59,479 nt of DNA, taken from contig JBFLYA010000002.1 of NCBI GenBank assembly GCA_040757115.1, forward strand, positions 1 to 59,479, written 5' to 3'. The notes under the pieces are model-generated. The model saw nothing but the letters and a program-made list of their open reading frames with translations. It was not told the DNA's origin and searched no databases. Numbering within the stretch: position 1 is the stretch's first letter; every line of letters begins with the position of its first letter. Position numbers and translations under genes: made by a program. Source of the stretch: a bacterium. Its GTDB lineage: Bacteria; UBA9089; CG2-30-40-21; SBAY01. Below, in pieces: positions 5,261 through 59,479 of this stretch.

Positions 5261-5488
5261 GATAAAGCCGCAACCTGTTTAGCGTGGTCAGAGAACAAAA
5301 GGGAAAGTATTGAGTTATTACAAAACTATTTGAAATACAATAAGTTTTGTAATACAAAATTAAAAATTAAATATTAAAATGCAAAATGACATATCAAATA
5401 TCATATCAAAAATCAAAGAGCAAATATCAAAATTAAGGAATTCTTTTATTCTTATTTTTGATTTTTAATATTTAATATTTGATTTTTT
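5261..5488. repeat. Dispersed repeat and AAATATCAAA-type palindrome
   Basis: No gene is seen. From 5274 (CCTGTTTAGCGTGGTCAGAG) to about 5385 the sequence recurs at 41301-41412. It continues into a long imperfect palindrome whose arms are ATATCAAAAATCAAA-type units (about 5385-5440) and their complements (5455-5485). Confidence 0.75.
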
Positions 5489-5725
5489 GTAACCGTTCAG
5501 GCTATATATCAAAAGTGTAAGAAAGGGGATAAGGAGATAAGAGTGATATGGAGATAAGATAATAGAAATAGATTGAAATTTATAGAAATAGGTAGAAATT
5601 GATTGTGGAAAACAACAAATTTCCATAAATTTCTATTAGTTTCTATTAATTTCAATTTTTTTAATAATATCTCCCTATCTCCTTAATCTCCACATCTCCT
5701 TTTGTTACACCACCTGAACGCTTAC
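5489..5725. repeat. Composite palindromic element, GGAGATAAG arms
   Basis: The termini are GTAACCGTTCAGG (5489-5501) and CCTGAACGCTTAC (5713-5725), in inverted orientation. Inside, GGAGATAAG-like and TAGAAATAG-like units on the left are mirrored by CTATTAGTTTCTATT and ATCTCCTTAATCTCC on the right, so the whole element can fold into one long hairpin. No coding sequence is present. Confidence 0.85.
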
Positions 5726-5907
5726 CAGAAAAGATTATTGAGGTAATCATTGTCATACATAGGACATCAAAACCAAATTATTAATCAATCATGAGATGTC
5801 GGGCCTCAAAAGCTTGCTCTGATGAAAATCAGGAATGGAATGAAGCGTATGGTAAATAGTTTTTAATTTTTTCTCTGCGTCTCTGTGTCTCTGCGGTGAA
5901 CGGTTAC
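5726..5907. repeat. Second copy of the 185-bp dispersed repeat
   Basis: This is a near copy of 3131-3314. It begins CAGAAAAGATTATTGAGG, carries TTGCTCTGATGAAAATCAG in the middle and ends with CTCTGCG units and TGAACGGTTAC. It ends 8 bases before the stop codon of the minus-strand lpxI, so no independent terminator is visible for lpxI. Confidence 0.85.
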
Positions 5908-11791: not shown

Positions 11792-12718
11792 TTAGAATTT
11801 TGTCATCAAAGAAATTCGATGGGTATCATCCAAATCATCATAATCACAATAGGCATAATCTAAACCAATACCCGTCCCTGGGAATTTAAATCCCGCACCA
11901 AAAGTCAGGTCTGATGATTTTAAAGCATCTTTCGTCAGTGTTTTATATCCGGCACGAATGGCCATTATTTCCTTGAACCAATATTCTGTCCCAAGATTAA
12001 AGTTTGTATCATTGTCTGAAGGGAAATTAACATCCAGACTTAAGGTCAATGCCTTATCTAATAATTTATAGGCACCACCTACCTTGAAATTTAATGGTAA
12101 TGCGTCTTTTTCACTCACAAATGCCTTTAATTTAGGGCCAAAATTCTGCACTACCATCCCTAAAGTGAGATTTTCAACTTGAGGTTTATATAAACAACCA
12201 ACATCTAAACCAAAGCCGGTAGATTTTTCGGTATCGATCTTCATCTGGATGTATTTTACTGTTGCCCCCACAGAACACTTTTCCATCAGCTGTCTGGCAT
12301 AGGATACCGCTACGGCAATATCTTTACCTTCGTATGTCCCATCCGGAACATTATCATTACCATCAAGATATTTGTCTATGCTTCCCGAATCTAATAGGGT
12401 AATCGCTCCACCCATAATTCCACCCATTATTTGAGCAGGATGGACATAGGCTAAGTAATTGTATTTTATCTCTGCCAGCCAATCTGAGTACATAAAGGTA
12501 CATTGTCTTTGTTCAATCTGAGCAATCCCGGCTGGATTCCAATAGAGGGCGTTAATATCATCTGCTACCGCACAAAATGATTCACCCATACCATTAGCCC
12601 TTGCCCCCTGGCCTAATTTTAAAAACACCGCTCCTTTACTTCCAGGCGAACCCGCCAGGACATAACTACCTGCCAGCAAAACTGCTACCCCTACCATTAA
12701 ACTTACAAACCTTTTCAT
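11792..12718 (-). CDS. PorV/PorQ-like outer-membrane beta-barrel protein, copy A
   Basis: The protein is related to PorV, the outer-membrane shuttle of type IX secretion, and to the UPF0164 barrels. The 308 residues begin with a signal peptide (MKRFVSLMVGVAVLLAG, cleavage probably after YVLA). The family N-terminal signature follows, GARANGMGESFCAVADDINA with ALYWNPAGIA, and the chain ends in an aromatic residue (MTKF) as outer-membrane barrels do. AAGGAGG lies upstream. It sits directly downstream of a giant protein with a type IX-like sorting domain, consistent with a cargo-handling role. Most of the 5' two thirds is almost base-identical to the paralogue at 20898. Confidence 0.85.
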   Translation of the reverse strand: MKRFVSLMVGVAVLLAGSYVLAGSPGSKGAVFLKLGQGARANGMGESFCAVADDINALYWNPAGIAQIEQRQCTFMYSDWLAEIKYNYLAYVHPAQIMGGIMGGAITLLDSGSIDKYLDGNDNVPDGTYEGKDIAVAVSYARQLMEKCSVGATVKYIQMKIDTEKSTGFGLDVGCLYKPQVENLTLGMVVQNFGPKLKAFVSEKDALPLNFKVGGAYKLLDKALTLSLDVNFPSDNDTNFNLGTEYWFKEIMAIRAGYKTLTKDALKSSDLTFGAGFKFPGTGIGLDYAYCDYDDLDDTHRISLMTKF

Positions 12719-13052: not shown

Positions 13053-16000
13053 TTACTTTATCACCCCAATCTTACCTTTCTTAACCGAGCCGAGTTCATC
13101 CTTTAAGAAATAGATGTAAATACCCGAAGCAACATCTTCGTTATCTTTATTCTTTAAATTCCATTTAATCTGGCTATCATTGATGTTATCTTTTTGTTTC
13201 TCAATGACTAATTCACCGGCTATGTTATATATTCTTAAGGTCACCTGTTTATCCGTGGTAATCTGAGTAAAGGTTACCTCTTGCCCTTTATAAGCAGGAT
13301 TAGGATAGACCAAAGCACCCTCTAAATTATTAAATACCGCTGGCACTTTGATAGTTATTTCATCATCTAATACCGCAGGTCGCTGGTCAATAGATTGTTC
13401 CTGACCAATTCTTTCGATAAACTTTGTTTCCCGGTTTTCTTCATCATCAAACTCAAAATTAACTTTAGAATAGACATCACAAGAAATGACCCTGAATGGC
13501 ACGGTAGCTAATAATCCTTCATCATCTATCTCTGGCTCCCAGACTACGACCGCATAATCAATCTTACCTGATGAATTATCTACTTCATTCTTCAGAATAT
13601 CAGCCTGATGTTTCACTGAACCCCGTGGGAAATCCCCCGGTTGAATCTGGATACCATCTTTGCTGTTATCCGCATCTATTACCTGTAATACCTTTGGATT
13701 AAAAGATAAGTGAATCTCACCACCAAGATAGTCTTTGGCATCGCGAACATATATTTTCAGATAGATAATATTCCCCACCCGCAGTTCATCAATATCTACT
13801 CCTTCAAGTGTCTCAAGATTAAATGACAATTCTATTCTGCCTTCAGTCTTTTTAGTTTTAGCCGGCATCGGAGTTAATTTTGCTATTTTAGCCTTTATTT
13901 GCTGTTTCCCAAAATTATCTCCAAAGATTTCAAAATCTAATGAATTAACCTGCTCATCATGATTAAAATCACCCTCTTTATTTCTTTCCCAATTACCTTC
14001 AGGGTTACCTTTATAATCTCCGTAGGCATCAACAAACCCAGGCCAATCGTCAATATTTACCTTACCATCATTAGTTATATCCCCTGCCAATAAGGTCATT
14101 GTGCCGATGTAACTGGTATCCTCAAATTGGGTTGGACTGATATAAATATTAGTTTTACTCGCAGGAGATGCCCCCCAGGTATCAAAGGTAAGGGTGTAGG
14201 TTCCTACAGGAATCTTCCCAAAAAAGAAGTAAGAATTATTATTAGTCATTGTAGTCGTCCCAATTTCTACAATCCTAACTTGAATATCTGAGCAGGTACC
14301 CAATGTCGAAGTCCCTAAATTAAGCAAGCAAAACCCTGCTATATTACCAAATCTTCTCAATGAATAGGCAGTAAAAGTGCAGGGAGAGCCAGTTAATCCT
14401 ACCGAAATAGCCTGGATGGTATATGTGCCTGGTGGTTCTGTGCCTAAGGTAAGAAAGGAAGATGTTGTGCCTTGAATGTTGGTAGTCGTTTTAGTTGGAG
14501 AGATAGAATAATCTATTGACCCGGGCGGCGAAGAGATAATTTTCCATTCTACATCTACCCCAGAGCAAGGATTATTATATTTATCCACTACCTTAACTAT
14601 AAATGGGTCTTTTAAAGTAAAGGTGCAGGTATTAACCTGGTTATTTCCAGAGATATAATGGAGGGTAGTTGGAGTGCCAGGGGTGATAATGATAGAGGTA
14701 GTGCCAATAAACCCAAGATATTCCCCTTTGATGGTATATGTGCCGATGTAATAGGCAGAAAAGGTATTAAGGGTAAATGAACCACCACCCGATGTAGTAA
14801 AAGTAGTAGAGCCAGTAACATCAAGTTCTAAACCACTACAATATGCCACGCAGTTATAATTAATTACCTCATCTGCCTTGACCACTTTATCCTTTGGGAA
14901 AACAGAGATAGAGGTAATAACATAATAGAGGGCAGAGTGAGTATTAAATGGAATATCTATACTTCCTGGCTTTCTTAATCTTGTCATCCGATTGTGTTGC
15001 GAATCAAAATCAAAGATAACACTTGAGGTTCCACCCAGGATAGCTTTAAATTTTATCTGACAAAGTATTCCCGAACCAGTAGCAGAGCCAGAAATTAGCC
15101 CAACGCTATAATCTATCTCACCTTTAGTATTATCATATTTATTCTGGAGTACCCAACCCTCTGGTGGAAATGTTCCTGTGCCTATTTCAATTACCTGAAG
15201 GATATTGGGGTTAAAACTAAGATGTAATTCTGCTACTCTTAATTCTGTTACATCCTCTATTTCCACATAAGCGGTAAATGTTGAATTAACCGCAATATTC
15301 TGTATGGCAGGTGTAATTTTCAAAAGAGTGGTTGGGAGGATATAAAAGGTTGTCTGAGCATAAATATCGGTCATCAAACCATAAGCCGTAATAGTTGTCG
15401 TTCCAATTGGCTGGCTATCGACGGTAAATATTACCTCAAATCCACCGAAGGCATTAGTAGTAGCTAAAGTAATAGTCGGAGTAGTCCCAAACTCAATCCT
15501 GATTAATTCAGTTGCCCCAAAGCCATTACCCATTACGGTGACAATAGAACCGATAGTCCCAGAAGTAGGGTTAATAAAGCCAATATTTGGCAGGATGATA
15601 AAGGGACATCTATCCATATTACCACTTACCATCCCTCTACCTGTAATAGTCGTAATGCCATAAGGTTGGGTATCTATAGTAAATACGGCAGAAAATGCTC
15701 CGTAGAAATTAGTAGTGGTGTAGGCAATTGTAGGCGTAGTGCCAAAGTTAATACAGATACCCTCTGTTGCGTCAAATCCAGCACCTTCTACAGTGATAAG
15801 AGTTCCTACTGTTCCCAGTGATGGCGTAATCATAAATATTCGTGGAATGACAAAAAATATAGTTTCAGCACTCTTACCTGAACTCAAACCTGTCGCCTTC
15901 ACCGTTTTAGTGCCATAAGGTTGGGTGCCAACGGTAAAAGTGGTATTAAATTGCCCTAAACTATCAGTAGAAGTCAAAACAATGGTTTGGGTAGTGCCAA

Positions 16001-18260
16001 AATCTATCCTTATCACTTCAGTCACTTTATAATCTATTCCACTTATCGTTACTATTGTTCCTACAGAGCCAGAAATAGGCAAAATCAAAGTAATATTTGC
16101 TGGAGGTCCTTCTGATAACCAAGGCTCATAATCAATATTACCAGAAAATGTCGAAGTAGCAGGTGGATGTTGTCCCCACCAATTATATTCTGCTGTCTGA
16201 GTCCCATCTGTTTGTAGATTATATGTTTGGTTATTATAGATATTATTATAGATAAGTGGAGAAATTTCTGAAGATTTACAATAAATACCTACTCCATTAC
16301 CAGCTGGATCGCCACCTCGGTTATATCTGAGAGTATTATAGGTAATGTTATTATCATCCGACGAAATTAAGTAAATTCCACTACCTACTTCTCCTGTACC
16401 ACCATCACCACATGGGACTCCTGCTGCTCCTCCTTGCCCGCCTATATTATCTGATGTGGTATTACCTGAAATGGTATTTCCTGTAGATGATGAAAGATAT
16501 ATTCCTGTACCTACACCACCTATACCACCAGAACTACCATACGCTCCTCCAGCTCTTCCTCCTTGACCACCTATATTATGTGATATAGTATTATTTGATA
16601 TAGTATTTCCTGTAGAGAATAAAAGATATATACCAGTACCTATACCACCTGCACCAGTAGAACCTTGATAGCCCAGCGCACCTGCTCCTCCTTGACCACC
16701 TATGTTATGTAATATAGTATTATTTGATATAGTATTTCCTGTAGAGAATAAAAGATATATGGCAGCACCTATTCCACCTGGAACACCAGGGCGGCCTACT
16801 TTTCCATTTTCTCCGATTCCTCCAACGATATAATTATATCGGATAGTAAAATTTGAACAATTAATTAATACAATTCGACCGAGATTTGTTGAACCAGAAC
16901 CAGCAAGAGTCAAAGTTTGATACTCAATAGTAGTTGAAGTAGTAATTCCATAATAATAATGAATTAGTTCACCATTATAGGTATTGGAAGGAAAGATGGT
17001 ATTATTGTAGCTATTTGAGTCAATGTAGAGACCATATCCTTGACCAGATATCCCTTCGTAACCAGCTTCAGCACCTGGTCCTCCTTGTCCCCCTATATTA
17101 TCTGATGTGGTATTACCTGAAATGGTATTTCCTGTAGAAGATGAAAGATATATTCCCACACCTATACCACCTGTACCACCACTACCCCAGTATCCGCCTC
17201 CTGGTCCTCCTTGCCCCCCTATATTATCTGATATGATATTATCTAAGATAGTATTCCCTGTAGAGGATAAAAGATATATTCCCGCACCTACACCACCTAT
17301 ACCACCAGAACTACTAGCACCACCTGACCCTCCTTGTCCCCCTATATTATCTGATGTGGTATTACCTGAAATGGTATTTCCTGTAGAAGATGAAAGATAT
17401 ATTCCTGTACCTACACCACCTATACCACCCATACCTAAACCATTTCCAGATCCCCCTTGACCACCTGTATTATCTGATATAGTATTACCTGAGATGATAT
17501 TTCCTGTAGAAGATAAAAGATATGTTCCCGCACCTATACCACCTATACCACCATCACCATTAAAACCGCCTCCTCCTCCTTGGCCGCCTGTATTTTGTGA
17601 GATTACATTTCCTAAGATGGTGTTATTTGTTGATGATGAGAGGTATATCCCGCAGCCTATACCACCTGCCCCTCCAGAGTAAAAGTCAAAGCCTGCACCT
17701 CCTTGACCACCTACGTTGTTGGAGATAGTATTTGTACCAATGAGATTATTTTTTGATCCTAAAAGGTATATTCCACAACCTATACTACCTGACGAACCAG
17801 TAATTCCATCATTTCCTTTATTTCCATGAATAGAATTATAAGTAATTACAATTTCCCATACATTTTTTAAATACACTGCTTGCTTAGCATAGCTAATTTC
17901 ACAATGACTAATTGTCCCTTTCGCATTTGTTCCATTAAATTCAACTCCTTGCCAATATCCAGGTGTAGGAGAGGAAAAACTAGTAAAGGTAATAGTTCCT
18001 CTCTCTGCCCCAGAAGCATTTAAGGTACCATACACTATCAACGCTGTATTAGTTGCAAACTTTACTTCTACTCTTGGCTCGATAACAAGTGTTTCACCAG
18101 AAGGCACAGTAACAGTAGCCGTAATTATGTAGGGACTACCTCCAAGATTCCAAATACCACTTTGAGTGCCACTCACCTCCATAGCTTCCACAGTTTCTAA
18201 TTTAAACGAGACTCCTATTACTAATAATAAATAAACCACCCATTTCATCTTTTTATCCAT
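13053..18260 (-). CDS. Giant secreted beta-helix/IPT/cohesin/dockerin protein with C-terminal sorting domain
   Basis: This is a large surface or extracellular protein, probably an adhesin or scaffold. Order of parts (approximate residues): signal peptide 1-27; right-handed parallel beta-helix 30-710 with reiterated NTISGNTISDN and GGQGG units; three IPT/TIG-like Ig folds 720-975 (each opening GTxVTVxGxGF); a cohesin-like domain 975-1120; Ig-like segments 1120-1305; a carboxypeptidase-regulatory-like fold; a dockerin-type calcium segment 1390-1450 with DITNDGKVNIDD and DFNHDEQVNSLD; a second cohesin-like domain 1465-1620; and a FlgD/Por-secretion-tail domain ending GIYIYFLKDE and KKGKIGVIK. 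The start chosen is the ATG at 18260, with AAGGAGGAG upstream. A TTG start at 18278 would translate the binding site itself. It overlaps the upstream DUF2723 gene by 8 bases. A paralogue lies at 54459. Confidence 0.9.
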   Translation of the reverse strand: MDKKMKWVVYLLLVIGVSFKLETVEAMEVSGTQSGIWNLGGSPYIITATVTVPSGETLVIEPRVEVKFATNTALIVYGTLNASGAERGTITFTSFSSPTPGYWQGVEFNGTNAKGTISHCEISYAKQAVYLKNVWEIVITYNSIHGNKGNDGITGSSGSIGCGIYLLGSKNNLIGTNTISNNVGGQGGAGFDFYSGGAGGIGCGIYLSSSTNNTILGNVISQNTGGQGGGGGFNGDGGIGGIGAGTYLLSSTGNIISGNTISDNTGGQGGSGNGLGMGGIGGVGTGIYLSSSTGNTISGNTTSDNIGGQGGSGGASSSGGIGGVGAGIYLLSSTGNTILDNIISDNIGGQGGPGGGYWGSGGTGGIGVGIYLSSSTGNTISGNTTSDNIGGQGGPGAEAGYEGISGQGYGLYIDSNSYNNTIFPSNTYNGELIHYYYGITTSTTIEYQTLTLAGSGSTNLGRIVLINCSNFTIRYNYIVGGIGENGKVGRPGVPGGIGAAIYLLFSTGNTISNNTILHNIGGQGGAGALGYQGSTGAGGIGTGIYLLFSTGNTISNNTISHNIGGQGGRAGGAYGSSGGIGGVGTGIYLSSSTGNTISGNTTSDNIGGQGGAAGVPCGDGGTGEVGSGIYLISSDDNNITYNTLRYNRGGDPAGNGVGIYCKSSEISPLIYNNIYNNQTYNLQTDGTQTAEYNWWGQHPPATSTFSGNIDYEPWLSEGPPANITLILPISGSVGTIVTISGIDYKVTEVIRIDFGTTQTIVLTSTDSLGQFNTTFTVGTQPYGTKTVKATGLSSGKSAETIFFVIPRIFMITPSLGTVGTLITVEGAGFDATEGICINFGTTPTIAYTTTNFYGAFSAVFTIDTQPYGITTITGRGMVSGNMDRCPFIILPNIGFINPTSGTIGSIVTVMGNGFGATELIRIEFGTTPTITLATTNAFGGFEVIFTVDSQPIGTTTITAYGLMTDIYAQTTFYILPTTLLKITPAIQNIAVNSTFTAYVEIEDVTELRVAELHLSFNPNILQVIEIGTGTFPPEGWVLQNKYDNTKGEIDYSVGLISGSATGSGILCQIKFKAILGGTSSVIFDFDSQHNRMTRLRKPGSIDIPFNTHSALYYVITSISVFPKDKVVKADEVINYNCVAYCSGLELDVTGSTTFTTSGGGSFTLNTFSAYYIGTYTIKGEYLGFIGTTSIIITPGTPTTLHYISGNNQVNTCTFTLKDPFIVKVVDKYNNPCSGVDVEWKIISSPPGSIDYSISPTKTTTNIQGTTSSFLTLGTEPPGTYTIQAISVGLTGSPCTFTAYSLRRFGNIAGFCLLNLGTSTLGTCSDIQVRIVEIGTTTMTNNNSYFFFGKIPVGTYTLTFDTWGASPASKTNIYISPTQFEDTSYIGTMTLLAGDITNDGKVNIDDWPGFVDAYGDYKGNPEGNWERNKEGDFNHDEQVNSLDFEIFGDNFGKQQIKAKIAKLTPMPAKTKKTEGRIELSFNLETLEGVDIDELRVGNIIYLKIYVRDAKDYLGGEIHLSFNPKVLQVIDADNSKDGIQIQPGDFPRGSVKHQADILKNEVDNSSGKIDYAVVVWEPEIDDEGLLATVPFRVISCDVYSKVNFEFDDEENRETKFIERIGQEQSIDQRPAVLDDEITIKVPAVFNNLEGALVYPNPAYKGQEVTFTQITTDKQVTLRIYNIAGELVIEKQKDNINDSQIKWNLKNKDNEDVASGIYIYFLKDELGSVKKGKIGVIK
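16380..17790. repeat. Tandem degenerate repeats encoding beta-helix coils
   Basis: Units of roughly 110-135 bp recur about ten times. Stretches such as 17086-17154 and 17334-17402 are essentially identical (both contain TATTATCTGATGTGGTATTA). All keep frame, so recombination between units would alter helix length without breaking the protein. The complementary frames on the plus strand are Pro-rich shadows, not genes. Confidence 0.85.
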
Positions 18261-20599: not shown

Positions 20600-20629
20600 A
20601 TTATACCACTACTCTCTTTCCTCTGTCAA
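20600..20629 (-). promoter_or_regulatory. Promoter of the DUF2723/giant-protein operon
   Basis: On the minus strand TTGACA (20629-20624) and TATAAT (20605-20600) are 18 bases apart. The -10 is 22 bases from the ATG at 20577, leaving a leader of about 15 nt. Confidence 0.85.
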
Positions 20630-20897: not shown

Positions 20898-21818
20898 TTA
20901 AAACTTTGTCACTAATGACACTCGGTGCGTATCATCCAGATCACCATAATCACAATAGGCATAATCAAGTCCTATGCCTGTGCCTGGTAATCTAAATCCT
21001 GCTCCAAAGGTTAAATCTGAGGATTTTAATTCATCTTTAGTTAGTGTTTTGTATCCAGCTCGAAGTGCTACTATTTCTTTGAACCAGTATTCTGCTCCAA
21101 GGTTAAAATTCGTATCATTATCTGAAGGGAAATTAACATCCAGACTTAAGGTCAATGCCTTATCTAATAATTTATAGGCACCACCTACCTTGAAATTTAA
21201 TGGTAATGCATCTTTTTCACTCACAAATGCCTTTAATTTAGGGCCAAAATTCTGCACTACCATTCCTAAAGTGAGATTTTCAACTTGAGGTTTATATAAA
21301 CAACCAACATCTAAACCAAAGCCGGTAGATTTTTCGGTATCGATCTTCATCTGGATGTATTTTACTGTTGCCCCTAATGAGCAGTTCCCCTTTATCTCTC
21401 TGGCATAGGAAACTGCTAATGCCATATCTTTACCATCATAGTTACCTTCTGGATTGGCAGCCGCACCATATTTGTCTATACTTCCCGAATCTAATAGGGT
21501 AATCGCTCCACCCATAATTCCACCCATTATTTGAGCAGGATGGACATAGGCTAAGTAATTGTATTTTATCTCTGCCAGCCAATCTGAGTACATAAAGGTA
21601 CATTGTCTTTGTTCAATCTGAGCAATCCCGGCTGGATTCCAATAGAGGGCGTTAATATCATCTGCTACCGCACAAAATGATTCACCCATACCATTAGCCC
21701 TTGCCCCCTGGCCTAATTTTAAAAACACCGCTCCTTTACTTCCAGGCGAACCCGCCAGGACATAACTACCTGCCAGCAAAACTGCTACCCCTACCATTAA
21801 ACTTACAAACCTTTTCAT
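20898..21818 (-). CDS. PorV/PorQ-like outer-membrane beta-barrel protein, copy B
   Basis: The 306-residue paralogue of the gene at 11792 has the same signal peptide and the same GARANGMGESF and ALYWNPAGIA signatures, and ends LVTKF. By eye the DNA is identical to copy A over the first 340 bp and differs at only two sites over a further 250 bp (21118-21373 versus 12017-12272). Between these (the YDGKDMALAVSYA region) and in the last 230 bp the copies differ at many synonymous sites. This mosaic suggests gene conversion. It stands upstream of the DUF2723/giant-protein operon in the same orientation. Confidence 0.85.
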   Translation of the reverse strand: MKRFVSLMVGVAVLLAGSYVLAGSPGSKGAVFLKLGQGARANGMGESFCAVADDINALYWNPAGIAQIEQRQCTFMYSDWLAEIKYNYLAYVHPAQIMGGIMGGAITLLDSGSIDKYGAAANPEGNYDGKDMALAVSYAREIKGNCSLGATVKYIQMKIDTEKSTGFGLDVGCLYKPQVENLTLGMVVQNFGPKLKAFVSEKDALPLNFKVGGAYKLLDKALTLSLDVNFPSDNDTNFNLGAEYWFKEIVALRAGYKTLTKDELKSSDLTFGAGFRLPGTGIGLDYAYCDYGDLDDTHRVSLVTKF

Positions 21819-51905: not shown

Positions 51906-54440
51906 ATGTCAAAAAAGAAAAGATCAATTTTTTATCTATCAGATAACATCAAAATATTTATTAGTTTGTTAATAGTTCTTATATCATCTTTTTCAGTAGG
52001 ATTATTTATATGGAATCTTTGTTATCCTGGTAATCTATCTTCCTTTTTATCTATATTTATATTTTCTCTTAAAGAAATTCATACTCAGTCACTTTTAAGA
52101 TTTTTAATGACCTCTGGAATTTATTTTATTATAATCTGGGTTATCATCTCATTTTTTATTAATAAGGTTACTAAAGATAATTTAAAAGATGTGTTGATAA
52201 GAGATGGGTTGAGTTACCTTCCATGTTTAGTTTTAATTCCAGCTGCCTTCTTACAAACTTTTTTCCCTCAATTACCCAACTTTACTCTCTACCAATCTTT
52301 TATTTTTGTTCTTATAGGAGGAAGTATTCTACCTGTTAAGTTGTTTCTTTTCCCTAATTTTAAAATATCTATTTCTTCTCGATTTTCACTAATAGTAATT
52401 AGTTTTCTTATAATATCTTATATAGCCATTTTTACACTTATAAGTTTTACTAAATTAGATAAATTTTTATATGGATTATGTGATTTAGGGATGTTTACTC
52501 ATGTGATGTGGAATACTATTAATGGCAAAATATTATACTTCCAAGTTTTTGGTAAAGGTATTAATTTTTTAGGAGAGCACATGTCTCCTATCTTATTATT
52601 ACTTGTTCCTTTTTACTGGGTTTATCCAGACCCGAAAACATTGTTGTTTATCCAAACAGTGCTTATTTCATTTGGTGCTATACCTGTATACTTAATTGCT
52701 ATAAGTGTATTAAAAGATAGATTTGCAGGTTTATGTTTTGTAGTTGCCTATCTATTTTATCCATTTACTGGGAGGGTTAATCTATTTGAATTTCATGAGG
52801 TATGTTTTGTTATCCCATTTCTTTTATTTTGTTTTTATTTTCTACAAAGAAGAAATTATAAATTATATTATCTTTTTATGATATTATCATTATCTGTAAA
52901 AGAAGAGATAAGTATCGCTATTTTTATGATAGGGTTATATGCATTTTTAGTAATGAGAGAAAAAAAATTGGGGTTAATTACTATAGTTATATCTATAATC
53001 TGGGCTCTTTTAGCAATAAAGGTTCTTATACCATTTTTTAGAGGAGGGGAAGAATATTCTCATATCCAAAGATATGTTACCGAAGGTGGTGGAGGATTTC
53101 TCCAAATAATTCAATATTATCTTAAGCATCCATTATTAACTTTAAAAAATGCCTTTGGAAATATTCAAATAGTAACTTTATGCTTATTGTTAGTACCTCT
53201 TGGGCTTTTACCTTTATTTGCACCAAAGGTTTTATGTTTAGCTTTTCCTTTAATACTTCTTCATTTCCTATCTACATTTGAATTACAACAGGCACTTCAA
53301 TGGCAATATTCTGCTTCTATTATTCCCTTCCTTATAATTGCTGGAATATATGGATTAAGGAATATAATTATTGGAATAGGGGAAAAAACATCTTATTTAA
53401 CATCCAAAAGACAAATTAAAGCAAAAGATAATAAAAAAAATATTATATCACTATTAGGAGAAAAAAGAATTACTTTTATAGGTGCAAGTTTTATCCTATC
53501 TACTTCTGTTATAGGAAGTTATTTTTTTTCTCATCCTCCATTTTTAAAATTAACAACATGGGAAGGATGGGAATTTAATAATTATAAGAGATTTCTCTCT
53601 TTATCATTATCTCCCAAAGATTATTCTACTTCTATTCACCGCAGGTTATACTTTGAGATTAAAAAGATTATTTCGGATAAAGCCAGTTTGTCAGTTCAGG
53701 ATAGTTTAGCTCCAGAGTTATGTAATCGAGAAAATGTATATCAATACCCTTCTTGTAGTCCAGAAATTGAATACTTTTTTTTAGATGTTTCAACTAATTT
53801 TATAAGGACAGGAAGTTTTTGGGAAACTTATAAAAATAACTTATCAGCACTTTTAAATGATGTTAATTATCAACTCCTATTTTATGGAGATGGATTTTAT
53901 TTATTTTGTAAAAAAGAGAATTGGAATGAAAATATCCTTTTAAGATATGAAAAAGCATTAGAAAAAAAACCTAAAAGATGGGAAAGATTTTATGTAATAG
54001 GTGTGGTTTATTCTTTATTAGGTAAATGGAGTGAGGCAAAAGAAATGTTTAAATCCTCCTCAGAAATTGACCTAAATCTTACTATCAAATATCTTCATGA
54101 ACTTGGAAATTTCCATTATGAGAAAAAAGAATTAGAGAAATGTATGAGTATATTTGAATTAATTGTAGAATTAAATCCTAAATATGAGGATATAGAAATG
54201 TATAACAGGTTAGCTAGAATTTATCATCATAAGGGAATGATCGATAAAACTATCATTATAGCACAAAAAATTATAAAGATTGATCCTAAAAATATCAAAG
54301 TTTATAACAACTTAGGTTTACTTTATTATAAAAAAGGATTATCTCATAAAGCAAGGGAATTATTTAATAATGTCTTAAAACTTGACCCGCATAATTCCGA
54401 TGCTAACAAAATGTTACAGATAATATCAAATAAATTTTAA
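51906..54440 (+). CDS. DUF2079-family multispanning membrane protein with C-terminal TPRs
   Basis: An 844-residue inner-membrane protein. The DUF2079 core shows YGLCDLGMFTHVMWNTINGK, NFLGEHMSPILLLLVPFYW and FEFHEVCFVIPFLLF, with over ten hydrophobic segments in a GT-C-like layout. A periplasmic part is followed by about four TPRs (residues 670-840, for example VYNNLGLLYYKKGLSHKARE). GAGGAG precedes the ATG. It stands 18 bases before a giant beta-helix gene, the same arrangement as the DUF2723-TPR gene at 18253, although the membrane domains belong to different families. A shared role with the downstream secreted protein is inferred. Confidence 0.85.
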   Translation: MSKKKRSIFYLSDNIKIFISLLIVLISSFSVGLFIWNLCYPGNLSSFLSIFIFSLKEIHTQSLLRFLMTSGIYFIIIWVIISFFINKVTKDNLKDVLIRDGLSYLPCLVLIPAAFLQTFFPQLPNFTLYQSFIFVLIGGSILPVKLFLFPNFKISISSRFSLIVISFLIISYIAIFTLISFTKLDKFLYGLCDLGMFTHVMWNTINGKILYFQVFGKGINFLGEHMSPILLLLVPFYWVYPDPKTLLFIQTVLISFGAIPVYLIAISVLKDRFAGLCFVVAYLFYPFTGRVNLFEFHEVCFVIPFLLFCFYFLQRRNYKLYYLFMILSLSVKEEISIAIFMIGLYAFLVMREKKLGLITIVISIIWALLAIKVLIPFFRGGEEYSHIQRYVTEGGGGFLQIIQYYLKHPLLTLKNAFGNIQIVTLCLLLVPLGLLPLFAPKVLCLAFPLILLHFLSTFELQQALQWQYSASIIPFLIIAGIYGLRNIIIGIGEKTSYLTSKRQIKAKDNKKNIISLLGEKRITFIGASFILSTSVIGSYFFSHPPFLKLTTWEGWEFNNYKRFLSLSLSPKDYSTSIHRRLYFEIKKIISDKASLSVQDSLAPELCNRENVYQYPSCSPEIEYFFLDVSTNFIRTGSFWETYKNNLSALLNDVNYQLLFYGDGFYLFCKKENWNENILLRYEKALEKKPKRWERFYVIGVVYSLLGKWSEAKEMFKSSSEIDLNLTIKYLHELGNFHYEKKELEKCMSIFELIVELNPKYEDIEMYNRLARIYHHKGMIDKTIIIAQKIIKIDPKNIKVYNNLGLLYYKKGLSHKARELFNNVLKLDPHNSDANKMLQIISNKF

Positions 54441-54458
54441 ACAGAAGGTAAATAAAAA

Positions 54459-57400
54459 ATGTGGAAAAAGATAAAAGTGGTAGTTTATTTATTAATAATA
54501 GGAAGTTTCTTTAACATAGAAATAGGAGAAGCAGTGGAAGTAAATGGTAATCAAAGTGGTATATGGAGTTTAAGTAATAGCCCTTATGTAGTGACAGGTA
54601 CTGTTACTGTCCTTTCTGGGGAAACACTTGTCATTGAGCCCAAGGTAGAAGTGAGATTTGCTACTAATACTTCGTTGGTGGTTTGTGGAACATTATCAGC
54701 TATTGGTACACTTGATGGAACGATTACTTTTACATCTAATGCAGGTACACCTACTCCAGGTAATTGGAATAGTATTAAATTTAGTGGTGTCCAGAGTAAA
54801 GGAACAATTAGTTATTCTCTTATAGAATATGGTAAACAAGCGATTTATTTAGAAAATGTTTCCAAAATTACTGTTACTCATAATACAATTAGAAATAATA
54901 AAGGTGATGACGGTTCTATATGTGCAGATGGTGAAATAGGAGCAGGAATTTGTCTCTTTTCATCCACCAATAATACTCTTGCCGGAAATATTATTTCAAA
55001 TAATCAAGGGGGGCAAGGTGGACCAGCTGATTATGGAATCTCAGGTGGTGAAGGAGGTATAGGTGCAGGAATATACTTATTATCTTCGACCAATACTACT
55101 ATCATAGATAATATCATCTCCAATAATAATGGTGGAGAAGGCGGTCAAGGTGCTGATCGCGCGGCAGGTGGCCACGGAGGTAGTGGTGTAGGGATTTACT
55201 TAGAATCATCCACTAATAATACTATTACAGATAACACCATCTCTAATAATAATGGTGGGCAAGGAGGGAGAGAGGGATTTCTATTCTCTTCAGCAGGTGG
55301 AGGAGGTATTGGTGCAGGGATATATTTATCATCAAATACTAATATTATTACAGGTAATACCATCTCTAATAATAGTGGTGGTGGTGGTGGTAGTGGTAAT
55401 GGTTTGGGTGCAGGTGGTGCAGGCGGTATTGGTGTAGGAATATATTTAATCTCATCAACAAATGTTACCATATCAACTAACACTATTTCCTATAATCAAG
55501 GTGGTCAAGGAGGACCAGGCGGTGACCACGGTGCAGGTGGTGCAGGCGGTATTGGTGTAGGAATATATTGGCAACAATCGACTAATAATACTATTACAAA
55601 TAATACAATATCTGATAATAGAGGAGGACAAGGAGGAGGTAGTGGTAGTGAGAATTTAGGAGGTGGTGGAGGTAAAGGTGTAGGAATGTATTTATCATCA
55701 TCCACTAATAATACTATTACAGGTAATACCGTCTCTAATAATAGAGGAGGAGATGGAGGATCAGGTGGTTTTAAAAGTCCAGGAGGAACAGGAGGTACTG
55801 GTGGAGGAATACATTTATTCTCATCGACTCACAATACTATTACAAGTAACACTATTTCCAATAATAGTGGTGGTAAAGGAGGGGGGCCAAATGGTAGTCA
55901 TGGGAATGGTTATGGTATCTATATTGATTCCAATAGTTATAATAATATCATTGATTCTAATAATACTTACAATGGTGAACCTATCCATTATTACTATGGA
56001 ATTACTCTACCAACTACAGTTGAAAATCGAACTTTGACACTTACAGGTTCTGGTTCAACCAATCTGGGGAGGATTGTGTTAATTAATTGCTCAAATTTTA
56101 CTATTAGGAACAATTATATTACTGGTGGAATAGGGGAAAATGGTCAAACAGGAGGTGGATATGATTACCCCGGAGGTACAGGAAGTATTGGTGCAGGAAT
56201 ATACTTATCATCATCCACTAATAATACTATTACAGGCAATACCATCTCTGGTAACAGGGGTGGTCAGGGAGGAGCAGCTGGACCTCATGGCTCAGGAGGG
56301 TTAGGAGGTATTGGCGTTGGGATATATTTATTATTATCTACTAATAATACCATTAAAGGTAATACCATCTATAATAATAGTGGTGGTGAAGGAGGAGCAG
56401 GCTACGAAATTGGTTCAAGAGGGAGAGGGGGAAGTGGTGTAGGAATCTATTTAGATTCATCTTCCAGTAATACCATTGCCCAGAACAATACTATTACTAA
56501 TAACATTGGTGGTGCCGGTAATCCAGATGGGAATGGAGTAGGTATTTATTGTAAATCTTCACAAATCTCTCCACTTATTTACAATCATATTTATAACAAC
56601 CAAACTTACAACCTCCAAACAGACATATCTCCCGGTCCCCAGATAGCCGAATATAACTGGTGGGGTTCTGATCCACCTGAGATATCTAAGTTCTCGGGTA
56701 ATATCGATTATGACCCATGGCTTAGGGGTACTTATACTACACAAATTATGATTTCTCCTGTAGCGGGGACGGTAGGGACTATCGTTACCGTCTCAGGTCA
56801 AGGATTTGGAGAAAATGAATTAATTAGCATAGAATTTGGAACAACTGGCACTATTACCACGGGTAGTACTAATATTTTAGGTACATTCACTACTATTTTT
56901 ACGGTTAATACCCAACCTTACGGCACTACTACAGTAAGGGCGGTTGGGGTAGATTCGAACAGGTCCTCTGAAATGGTATTTTGCATCCTGCCAAAAATAT
57001 TTATGGTTAGTCCTACGATAGGAACAGTAGGAACCTTTATCACGGTAAGGGGTAATGGATTTGGGGCAACAGAATCTATTTGTATTGATTTTGGCACTAC
57101 CAAAACTATTATAGTTACTTTCTCTACCCACAGTGGAAACTTTACTACTATATTTACCGTAAATAGTCAACCATTAGGCACAACAACTATTATAGGAAAA
57201 GGTATGCTCTCAGAATGTTTTGCAATAGAAATTTTTTATATCTTGCCACCAACAATATTGAAGATTACCCCTGCCATACAGAATATTGCTGTTAATTCAA
57301 CATTTACCTGCCAGGTCGAGATAGAGGATGTAAGTAATTTAGTGGCAGGTGATTTGTATATTAGCTATGACTCTAATATCCTTGAAGTAACAGGAGTAGG

Positions 57401-59479
57401 TAGCGGCACATTTCCACCCAATTGTAATGCAGTAAGTAAAATTACTGCTGGTAAGATAGATTACTCCTTTGGATTATTCTCTGGCTCTGCTACTGGCTCA
57501 GGAATACTCTGCTTTTTACATTTTAAAGCGATTGCAGGTGGGACATCAAGTGTAGCAATTGATACAACCCAAGACCGCAAAACAATATTACTTAAAATTG
57601 ATATAGACACCCCAGAGGAAATCCCGTTTACTAAAGAAGATGCGATATATTATGTAATTAGTAAGATTAAAATTAAACCTCAGGATAAAATAATAAAGGC
57701 AGATGAGGATGTTGAATATCAATGTATTGGAGAGTGTGGTAGTGGGTTAGAACTTGATGTTACTGGCTCTACTACCTTTAGTTCAAATGGAGGTGGCTCA
57801 TTTACACTTAATACCTTCCATGCAAAATATATGAGTACATACACAATTCAAGGGGAATATCTTGGATTTATTGGAACTACATCAGTGATTATCCTACCTG
57901 GCACTCCAACAACTTTAGTTTATGTCTCAGGAAATGGTCAGGTTAATACCTGTACCTTTACCTTAAAAGACCCATTTATAGTTAAGGTAGTGGATAAATA
58001 TGAAAACCCTTGCCAGGATGTAGAGGTAAAGTGGGAAATTATCTCTATCCCTTCTGGTGCAACTTTATATTCTATCTCTCCAACTAATACTACAACCAAT
58101 GCTCAAGGGACAGTTTCATCTTTCCTTACCTTAGGTACAGAACCTCCAGGAACATATACCATACATGCAATATCAACTGGGCTATCAGGCTCTCCTTGTA
58201 TCTTTACTGCCCATTCATTAAGACGATTTGGCAATATAGCTGGTTTTTGTTTGTTGAAGTTAGGCACTATTTCCTTAGGTACATGCTCAGATATTCGGGT
58301 AAGGATTGTAGAGCTTGGGACAACTACAATGACTAATGATAGTTCTTACTTCATATTTGAGAATATACCAGTAGGAACCTACACCCTTAACTTTGATACC
58401 TGGGGAGCATCTCCATCAACTAAGACCAATATTTGTATTAGTCCAACACAATTTGAAGATACTACTTACATTGGTACTATTACGCTATTAGCAGGAGATG
58501 TAAATAATGATGGTCAGGTAAATATTGGAGATTGGCCGTTATTTGCAGATGCATGGCGAGAGAAGGCAACTAAAACTCATACCAATTGGGAGCTATATAA
58601 AGAGGCAGATTTTAATCATGATAGTAAAGTAGATGCATACGATTTTATTGTTATTAGAAATAATTTTGGTGAACAACAAAAAGGTAAGGCTAAAGAATTA
58701 ATTGCGATGTCCACAAAGGCTAAAAAGACCTCTGGTAAAATAGAGTTATCTTTTGACCTTGAGACACTTGAAGGGGTAGATATTAACGAGTTGCGTGTTG
58801 GGAATATTATCTATCTTAAAATATATGTTCGTGATGCAAAAGACTACCTTGGTGGTGAAATCCATCTTGCTTTTAATCCAAAGGTATTACAAGTAATAGA
58901 TGCGGATAACAGCAAAGATGGTATCCAGATTCAACCAGGGGATTTTCCACAAGGTTCATTAAATTATACACCTGTTGAACTAAAGAATGAAGTAGATAAT
59001 TTAGTTGGTAAGATTGATTATGCAGTAGCAGTTTGGGAACCAGAGCAAGGAGAGAAGGGGATATTAGCTATTGTCCCATTTAAGGTAATCTCTTGCGGTG
59101 CTTATTCTAAAGTTAATTTTGAGTTTGATGATGAAGAAAACCGCGAAACAAAGTTTATCGAAAGAATTGGTCAGGAACAACCTGTTGACCAGCAACCTGA
59201 GGTATTAGATGAGGAAATAATTATCAAAGTGCCAGCGGTATTTAATAATTTAGAGGGTGCATTGGTCTATCCCAATCCTGCTTATAAAGGGCAAGAGGTA
59301 ACCTTTGATCAGCTTACTACGGATAAGCAAATTACCTTAAGAATTTATAGCCTTGCAGGGGAATTAGTATTTGAAAAGAGTGGAATGAATGAAATCAAAT
59401 GGAACCTAAAGAATAAAGATAACGAAGATGTTGCCTCAGGTATTTATATCTATTTTTTAAAGGATGAACTCGGCTCGGT
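54459..59479 (+). CDS. Second giant beta-helix/IPT/cohesin/dockerin protein, 3' end beyond window
   Basis: The frame is open from the ATG at 54459 to the window end (1673 complete codons). Order of parts: signal peptide (MWKKIKVVVYLLIIGSFFNI); beta-helix to about 56700 with NTISNNNGGQGG units; two IPT-like domains (56740-57250); cohesin-like (57255-57650); Ig-like segments; dockerin-type calcium segment (58490-58680, DVNNDGQVNIGD and DFNHDSKVDAYD); a second cohesin-like domain; and the sorting-domain start ALVYPNPAYKGQEVTF through IYIYFLKDELGS. It is a paralogue of the protein at 13053, which has one more IPT unit. The C-terminal third is the most alike, even in DNA. By comparison only about a dozen codons remain outside the window. 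Confidence 0.9.
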   Translation, partial: MWKKIKVVVYLLIIGSFFNIEIGEAVEVNGNQSGIWSLSNSPYVVTGTVTVLSGETLVIEPKVEVRFATNTSLVVCGTLSAIGTLDGTITFTSNAGTPTPGNWNSIKFSGVQSKGTISYSLIEYGKQAIYLENVSKITVTHNTIRNNKGDDGSICADGEIGAGICLFSSTNNTLAGNIISNNQGGQGGPADYGISGGEGGIGAGIYLLSSTNTTIIDNIISNNNGGEGGQGADRAAGGHGGSGVGIYLESSTNNTITDNTISNNNGGQGGREGFLFSSAGGGGIGAGIYLSSNTNIITGNTISNNSGGGGGSGNGLGAGGAGGIGVGIYLISSTNVTISTNTISYNQGGQGGPGGDHGAGGAGGIGVGIYWQQSTNNTITNNTISDNRGGQGGGSGSENLGGGGGKGVGMYLSSSTNNTITGNTVSNNRGGDGGSGGFKSPGGTGGTGGGIHLFSSTHNTITSNTISNNSGGKGGGPNGSHGNGYGIYIDSNSYNNIIDSNNTYNGEPIHYYYGITLPTTVENRTLTLTGSGSTNLGRIVLINCSNFTIRNNYITGGIGENGQTGGGYDYPGGTGSIGAGIYLSSSTNNTITGNTISGNRGGQGGAAGPHGSGGLGGIGVGIYLLLSTNNTIKGNTIYNNSGGEGGAGYEIGSRGRGGSGVGIYLDSSSSNTIAQNNTITNNIGGAGNPDGNGVGIYCKSSQISPLIYNHIYNNQTYNLQTDISPGPQIAEYNWWGSDPPEISKFSGNIDYDPWLRGTYTTQIMISPVAGTVGTIVTVSGQGFGENELISIEFGTTGTITTGSTNILGTFTTIFTVNTQPYGTTTVRAVGVDSNRSSEMVFCILPKIFMVSPTIGTVGTFITVRGNGFGATESICIDFGTTKTIIVTFSTHSGNFTTIFTVNSQPLGTTTIIGKGMLSECFAIEIFYILPPTILKITPAIQNIAVNSTFTCQVEIEDVSNLVAGDLYISYDSNILEVTGVGSGTFPPNCNAVSKITAGKIDYSFGLFSGSATGSGILCFLHFKAIAGGTSSVAIDTTQDRKTILLKIDIDTPEEIPFTKEDAIYYVISKIKIKPQDKIIKADEDVEYQCIGECGSGLELDVTGSTTFSSNGGGSFTLNTFHAKYMSTYTIQGEYLGFIGTTSVIILPGTPTTLVYVSGNGQVNTCTFTLKDPFIVKVVDKYENPCQDVEVKWEIISIPSGATLYSISPTNTTTNAQGTVSSFLTLGTEPPGTYTIHAISTGLSGSPCIFTAHSLRRFGNIAGFCLLKLGTISLGTCSDIRVRIVELGTTTMTNDSSYFIFENIPVGTYTLNFDTWGASPSTKTNICISPTQFEDTTYIGTITLLAGDVNNDGQVNIGDWPLFADAWREKATKTHTNWELYKEADFNHDSKVDAYDFIVIRNNFGEQQKGKAKELIAMSTKAKKTSGKIELSFDLETLEGVDINELRVGNIIYLKIYVRDAKDYLGGEIHLAFNPKVLQVIDADNSKDGIQIQPGDFPQGSLNYTPVELKNEVDNLVGKIDYAVAVWEPEQGEKGILAIVPFKVISCGAYSKVNFEFDDEENRETKFIERIGQEQPVDQQPEVLDEEIIIKVPAVFNNLEGALVYPNPAYKGQEVTFDQLTTDKQITLRIYSLAGELVFEKSGMNEIKWNLKNKDNEDVASGIYIYFLKDELGS
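54950..56500. repeat. Tandem degenerate repeats encoding beta-helix coils (second giant gene)
   Basis: Units with ACTAATAATACTATTACA, AATAATGGTGG and GGTATTGGTGTAGGAATATA recur about a dozen times with variable spacing (about 110-130 bp). As in the first giant gene they keep frame. Pro-rich and Val-rich frames on the other phases are shadows. Confidence 0.85.

Follow-up and report, generated by a model that had tools for sequence, protein, structure and literature searches.

Twice in this stretch of DNA, a membrane protein stands directly in front of a giant protein with a beta-helix. The two giants are paralogous, and the two membrane proteins belong to different families. This raises the question of what such an enzyme does there, and of why more than one family can fill the place. 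The window, which is the whole stretch of 59,479 nucleotides, is the entire contig C2 of a bacterial genome of 4.32 Mb (462 contigs, 99.9% complete, 1.4% contamination), with Candidatus Desantisbacteria among its nearest named relatives. This genome is called G000 below. G001 is of the same genus, and further genomes, through to G018, are of the same phylum, which is uncultured.

An earlier, sequence-only reading had described both places as one two-gene cassette built twice. Its open reading frames and coordinates proved correct when re-checked, and Pfam and ORF calls agree that both cassettes are real: DUF2079–TPR followed by a giant, and DUF2723–TPR followed by a giant. It overlooked the IPT/TIG repeats in the giants, the PorV-like neighbours and the distant GT-C kinship of the enzyme families.

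Two cassettes and the repeats in their giants

The first cassette is on the minus strand. A sigma70-like promoter, TTGACA-N18-TATAAT (20600..20629, −), precedes the enzyme P0003 (18253..20577, −), a DUF2723/TMEM260-like GT-C protein (PF11028, E 5e-42) with four C-terminal TPRs. The giant P0004 (13053..18260, −) consists of a beta-helix, three IPT repeats (15309..16094, −), a core and a Por_Secre_tail. It probably starts with the ATG at 18260, in an 8-nt overlap that takes in the enzyme's stop codon. PorV/UPF0164-like outer-membrane barrels, both over cut-off for PF19572 and PF03687, are encoded upstream of the cassette (20898..21818, −) and downstream of the giant (11792..12718, −).

The second cassette is on the plus strand. 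Its enzyme P0001 (51906..54440, +) is a DUF2079 GT-C-like membrane protein (PF09852, E 2.1e-63) with TPR matches that make up about four C-terminal units. After a gap of 18 nt follows the giant P0002 (54459..59479, +), with a signal peptide, a NosD-type beta-helix, two IPT repeats (56745..57272, +) and a conserved C-terminal core (57273..59479, +) that is cohesin/dockerin-like and carries a T9SS-like sorting domain. P0002 runs off the end of the contig; contig C46, with an overlap of 127 nt, finishes it at 1683 aa. Identity with G001 restarts at 57051, within the repeats. From there on, the core DNA is 92% identical in the sister species, where the enzyme and the N-terminal half in front of it are different ones. 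The giants are indeed paralogous, as had been claimed: their last 921 residues are 68% identical, their first 640 residues 46%.

The 84-residue repeats between beta-helix and core are IPT/TIG domains by Pfam, by sequence profile and by structure. PF01833 is matched by 10 of 17 repeats (best 7e-6), and the repeat profile matches the IPT domain of cyclodextrin glucanotransferase (CGTase). Two repeats modelled with AlphaFold (pLDDT 84) reach Z 9.4 against the CGTase IPT, and Z 8.2 over 155 residues against the tandem IPTs of MET and plexin A1. A conserved B-strand Thr of the repeat was considered as a mark of modification. It was rejected, being equally common in giants without a linked enzyme.

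The same repeat is found on a larger scale elsewhere in the genome. Contig C1 (loci L254-L258, 85,129 bases) is a single stop-free reverse-strand frame of 28,375 codons with both ends open. It carries at least 305 IPT/TIG repeats spanning 24,882 residues; at more than 28,000 aa, its product is titin-like.

The enzymes of the slot

Three further core-bearing giants in G000 also lie behind a GT-C gene. On contig C16 this is a DUF2723–TPR gene (gap 162 nt), and on C12 and C25 it is a PMT_2 gene without TPRs (gaps of 5 and 45 nt). The cassettes of relatives have DUF2723, PMT_2 or DUF2079 enzymes, and G001 also has an AftB-like one of 559 aa. This last enzyme has no Pfam family; its likeness to the arabinosyltransferase AftB is seen in matches to PDB 9dlf (E 2.7e-6) and NF041481 (E 1e-8). 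Across eight genomes, then, the one slot is occupied by four GT-C families, which extends the earlier claim that it is filled by several. The TPR tail, proposed as part of a shared plan, is there in both enzymes of the window. It is absent from the AftB-like slot enzymes and from most PMT_2 ones, with a single TPR-bearing PMT_2 slot enzyme found, in G017.

PF11028, formerly DUF2723, is now named 'Protein O-mannosyl-transferase TMEM260-like' in Pfam. P0003 is homologous to human TMEM260 (PDB 9rql, E 3.7e-32) over 478 residues, 41–518. The DSG[D/E] motif of the first luminal, catalytic loop is kept, with HDSGD of P0003 aligned to GDSGE of TMEM260. Its Asp, D66, is invariant in 28 DUF2723 sequences, and an Asp in the first periplasmic loop is likewise invariant in the alignments of DUF2079 (D193) and PMT_2 (D69). 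The model of P0003 (pLDDT 85) shows a GT-C fold with a TPR tail, at Z 23–25 to ALG12, STT3/AglB, Pmt1–Pmt2 and Pmt4. These GT-C matches came from VIA-align, the Foldseek result for the full model being dominated by TPR proteins. 9rql is absent among the structural matches listed for this model.

Profile comparison with hhalign links DUF2723 to PMT_2 (96%), AftB-like to PMT_2 (99%) and DUF2079 to AftB-like (97%), with the first-loop Asp aligned in each. The unrelated polytopic Wzy, used as a control, scores at most 1.3% over the membrane part. Direct matches failed for DUF2079 with PMT_2 (12%) and for DUF2079 with DUF2723, where the TPRs alone aligned. Judged by these profiles, the four slot families are distantly related GT-C glycosyltransferases. 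DUF2079 is the weakest case, with one indirect link by way of the AftB-like enzyme.

The DUF2723 enzymes of the slot agree closely over residues 61–240 (73–98% identity); beyond residue 300, identity is mostly below 45%. One reading is that the chemistry is the same and the recognition part diverges. Another is gene conversion of the first half.

Some other membrane proteins are found near such genes. In two genomes, a DUF2723 gene and a giant are separated by an opposite-strand gene for a polytopic protein (503-518 aa; L181:204-1715, L185:2084-3640). This protein has no Pfam match, and one copy has no NCBIfam match either. At L045 (12548-14860 and 15099-17420) two tandem membrane proteins have C-terminal TPR tails, the first being O-antigen-ligase-like (Wzy_C). 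This puts the TPR tail on yet another type of membrane enzyme.

Linkage, replacement and exchange

For counting, giants were gathered by their C-terminal core alone, ignoring neighbours, and were included where the upstream gene could be resolved. A co-directional GT-C gene directly upstream is found for 14 of 20 giants with IPT repeats and for 0 of 8 without (Fisher 0.001). Without three ambiguous cases this becomes 14/18 against 0/7 (Fisher 0.0007); both p-values are optimistic, as giants share ancestry. Of the remaining IPT giants, two have a TPR fragment upstream at a contig edge and four have no GT-C neighbour. Within G000, five of the six core-bearing giants have the enzyme upstream (binomial 3e-10, a figure that paralogy makes optimistic). 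The genome has about 34 GT-C genes of these families in 4.3 Mb, which gives odds of less than 1% per neighbour. The linkage, which is phylum-wide, is therefore not due to chance.

The earlier reading had named two observations that would speak against a link: giants without such a neighbour, and TPR-tailed enzymes that are mostly found elsewhere. The outcome is mixed. On the first, none of the eight giants that lack IPT repeats has such a neighbour, and some of the resolved IPT giants have none either. On the second, the count speaks against the link: only 2 of the 12 full DUF2723 copies in G000 directly precede a giant, and the other ten do not. The full census of G000 is 12 full and 2 partial DUF2723 genes, one DUF2079 gene and about 18 further PMT_2 genes.

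IPT proteins without an adjacent GT-C gene also exist (on C6, C87, C152 and C177, and at L171, L184 and L243). Unlinked GT-C genes, of which there are many, may act on these in trans, or these proteins may go unmodified. A general pairing of DUF2723 with IPT was not seen across bacteria. Of 80 loci drawn from many phyla, the only ones with an IPT gene no more than three genes away from DUF2723 were in Desantisbacteria-like genomes (L080, L086, L092); the IPT profile used was built from this genome. The NosD beta-helix fold occurs at the N-terminus behind three enzyme families, which means that enzyme family does not track the fold of the passenger.

Some loci retain traces of earlier occupants. 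On C12, the PMT_2 gene is preceded by the promoter of the first cassette, exact over 30 nt, and by the beginning of a DUF2723 gene, 58 codons long and with 76% identity to P0003. At C116 of G014, about 124 codons of a DUF2723 gene (57%) are left upstream of a DUF2079 gene. These truncated scars imply that DUF2723 was replaced in place, once by PMT_2 and once by DUF2079. A near-identical copy of the same promoter also precedes the PMT_2 gene on C236 of G001. The sequence-only reading had explained the two families by independent recruitment. Several families were indeed recruited, and the slot has also changed by serial replacement, so separate recruitment is not the whole of it.

Three exchange events can be read from the comparison of the congeneric G000 and G001. 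In the first, C25 and G001 C1 have flanks that are 86–96% identical. Similarity ends at the PorV stop codon and restarts at residue 370 of the giant, in the IPT array. In between, C25 has PMT_2 and its N-terminal half, and G001 an AftB-like enzyme and a different N-terminal half. The C25 enzyme, P0006, has no orthologue in G001 (best 42%). In the second, C16 and G001 C236 are similar (87%) until 10 nt into the GT-C gene, and again from residue 625, in the IPT array. Here DUF2723–TPR and a beta-helix in G000 face PMT_2 and an FG-GAP propeller in G001. The third is an insertion. At the right end of C2, compared with G001 C70, identity is 95–98% over the DUF2079 gene and the first 561 codons of the giant, and 92% over the core from residue 864 on; in between, G001 has an extra DUF2723–TPR gene and N-terminal half.

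All three 3' junctions fall in the IPT array. The enzyme and the N-terminal half of the giant have thus been replaced as one unit at two loci, and inserted as one unit at a third. As the enzyme and the variable front half were exchanged or inserted together at three loci, this suggests that each enzyme serves its neighbouring giant. The functional link that had been argued from slot sharing holds, and is stronger than was stated then, given four families, in-place replacement scars and this co-exchange.

Other rearrangements were noted in the same genomes. A 245-bp element is present in the window at 5487-5731 and, 96% identical, at L170:13038-13282, where it interrupts the DUF2079 gene of the sister species, at the third of these exchange loci (G001 C70). 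A Kelch/DUF11 protein (L045:3436-5607, L217:1759-3927), 76% identical between the species, behaves much like the giants: it has DUF2723–TPR before it in G000 and PMT_2 directly before it in G001. At this locus G000 also has a 248-aa Kelch fragment, flanked by PMT_2 and DUF2723, which looks like the result of a module insertion. On contig C227 of G000 (L056:3261-5451), the C-terminal part of the C16 giant occurs a second time, at 88-91% identity, in a copy broken by an in-frame stop or a frameshift.

A proposed function and its relation to known systems

The cassettes are probably dedicated membrane protein glycosyltransferases together with the exported giants that they would modify. The giant, as the predicted acceptor, would enter the periplasm by its signal peptide. 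There the GT-C enzyme, with a polyprenyl-phosphate-sugar donor, would add sugar to Ser or Thr of the IPT repeats, of the variable N-terminal domain, or of both. The enzyme's periplasmic C-terminal half, or its TPRs where present, would assist this transfer. Glycosylation would precede export, in which the C-terminal sorting domain would take the giant to the surface by way of PorV-like barrels and a type-IX-like route. Recombination would exchange enzyme and N-terminal half together, joining them within the IPT array to a C-terminal core that is conserved and serves export and attachment. As to which part of the giant is modified, the presence of IPT repeats predicts the enzyme, yet the exchanged unit is the enzyme with the N-terminal half and part of the IPT array.

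The export step is suggested by the sorting domains, 19 PorV-like genes over cut-off in the genome and C25 peptidases. Por_Secre_tail is over cut-off in P0004, P0008, P0009 and P0011; P0002 has a weak CHU_C match only, in a fragment that lacks its last 10 aa. Four of the PorV-like genes adjoin three of the five cassettes of G000. Five genes for C25 (gingipain/PorU-type) peptidases lie on contigs C44, C6, C43 and C11, several of them in frames of more than 2,000 aa. The sorting domains and the PorV-like barrels beside cassettes are like those of type IX cargo. A difference is that the genome search gave SprA only as a hit below cut-off (SprA_N at 23.2 bits against a cut-off of 27).

The enzymes could instead modify a lipid-linked glycan, either O-antigen or a T9SS anchor resembling anionic LPS, the giant merely sharing a locus of surface diversity. 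AftB and ArnT, like many PMT_2 enzymes, have lipids or glycans as substrates, Poly_export and Wzz/GNVR genes for polysaccharide export come after the second cassette, and the window has other polysaccharide genes. We nevertheless regard this as rather unlikely. An anchor enzyme should accompany the sorting core, yet what changes is the enzyme with the N-terminal half, and the core remains. None of the eight core-bearing giants without IPT repeats has the GT-C gene, and the characterised relative of DUF2723 is a protein O-mannosyltransferase.

Mere hitch-hiking would need no function in common: a recombination hot spot in the IPT array and the upstream flank would move anything in between. Contiguity alone would move both genes, and there are only three events, all between two species. 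Against this, 14 of 20 slots are occupied by a GT-C enzyme, across several families within the phylum, and the scars show GT-C swapped for GT-C and not for unrelated genes, which makes this explanation improbable. A role as chaperones for export or as assembly factors, with sugar transfer lost, is very improbable for the slot proteins, since the first-loop Asp is invariant and slot enzymes without TPRs occur, even if TPRs do bind proteins and large giants may need help with export.

For the favoured reading, that the enzymes glycosylate their giants, there is an animal parallel. Human TMEM260 (CAZy GT117; substrates plexins, MET and RON) has a homologous GT-C part of about 480 residues, the DSG[D/E] motif, C-terminal TPRs and an IPT partner. 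It O-mannosylates IPT domains with single mannoses, on B strands, and its TPRs have been proposed to recruit these domains (PMC11292533). The slot enzymes differ in being bacterial, in being encoded beside their proposed substrate and in sharing their place with other GT-C families; their activity is a prediction. TMTC1-4 (GT105), the cadherin O-mannosyltransferases, also join GT-C and TPRs and act on Ig-like domains, but are of a different family, and their bacterial homologues have no described gene pairing. Bacterial GT-C–TPR homologues have been noted in many genomes, without assigned substrates (PMC7801869).

It is conceivable, and we offer this tentatively, that the animal pairing of TMEM260 with IPT also exists in bacteria, and that GT-C O-glycosyltransferases of four families form exchangeable 'enzyme plus passenger' modules on a common surface-attachment core.

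Systems in which an adhesin comes with a glycosyltransferase of its own are known. In HMW1A/HMW1C, AIDA-I/Aah and the serine-rich-repeat adhesins with Gtf, the enzyme gene lies beside the single surface protein that it modifies. The HMW1C, Aah and Gtf enzymes are cytoplasmic, depend on nucleotide sugars and are of one family per system. Here, in contrast, the enzymes are membrane GT-C proteins, and four families have one slot in common. Of the marks of a dedicated pair, adjacency and co-exchange are observed here, while partner specificity is predicted.

We know of no T9SS cargo with an exchangeable GT-C partner. The literature searched does not mention DUF2723 or DUF2079 and holds no description of the pairing, in line with the earlier reading, which knew of none. 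A membrane GT-C slot of four families, exchanged along with its passenger, is to our knowledge new within that literature.

The genome itself thus nominates pairs of enzyme and substrate, including a TMEM260 homologue with IPT-domain partners. This makes domain-specific protein O-glycosylation testable in E. coli, with a substrate of a few hundred residues. The pattern of exchange is also a route by which bacteria could vary a surface protein and its modification jointly.
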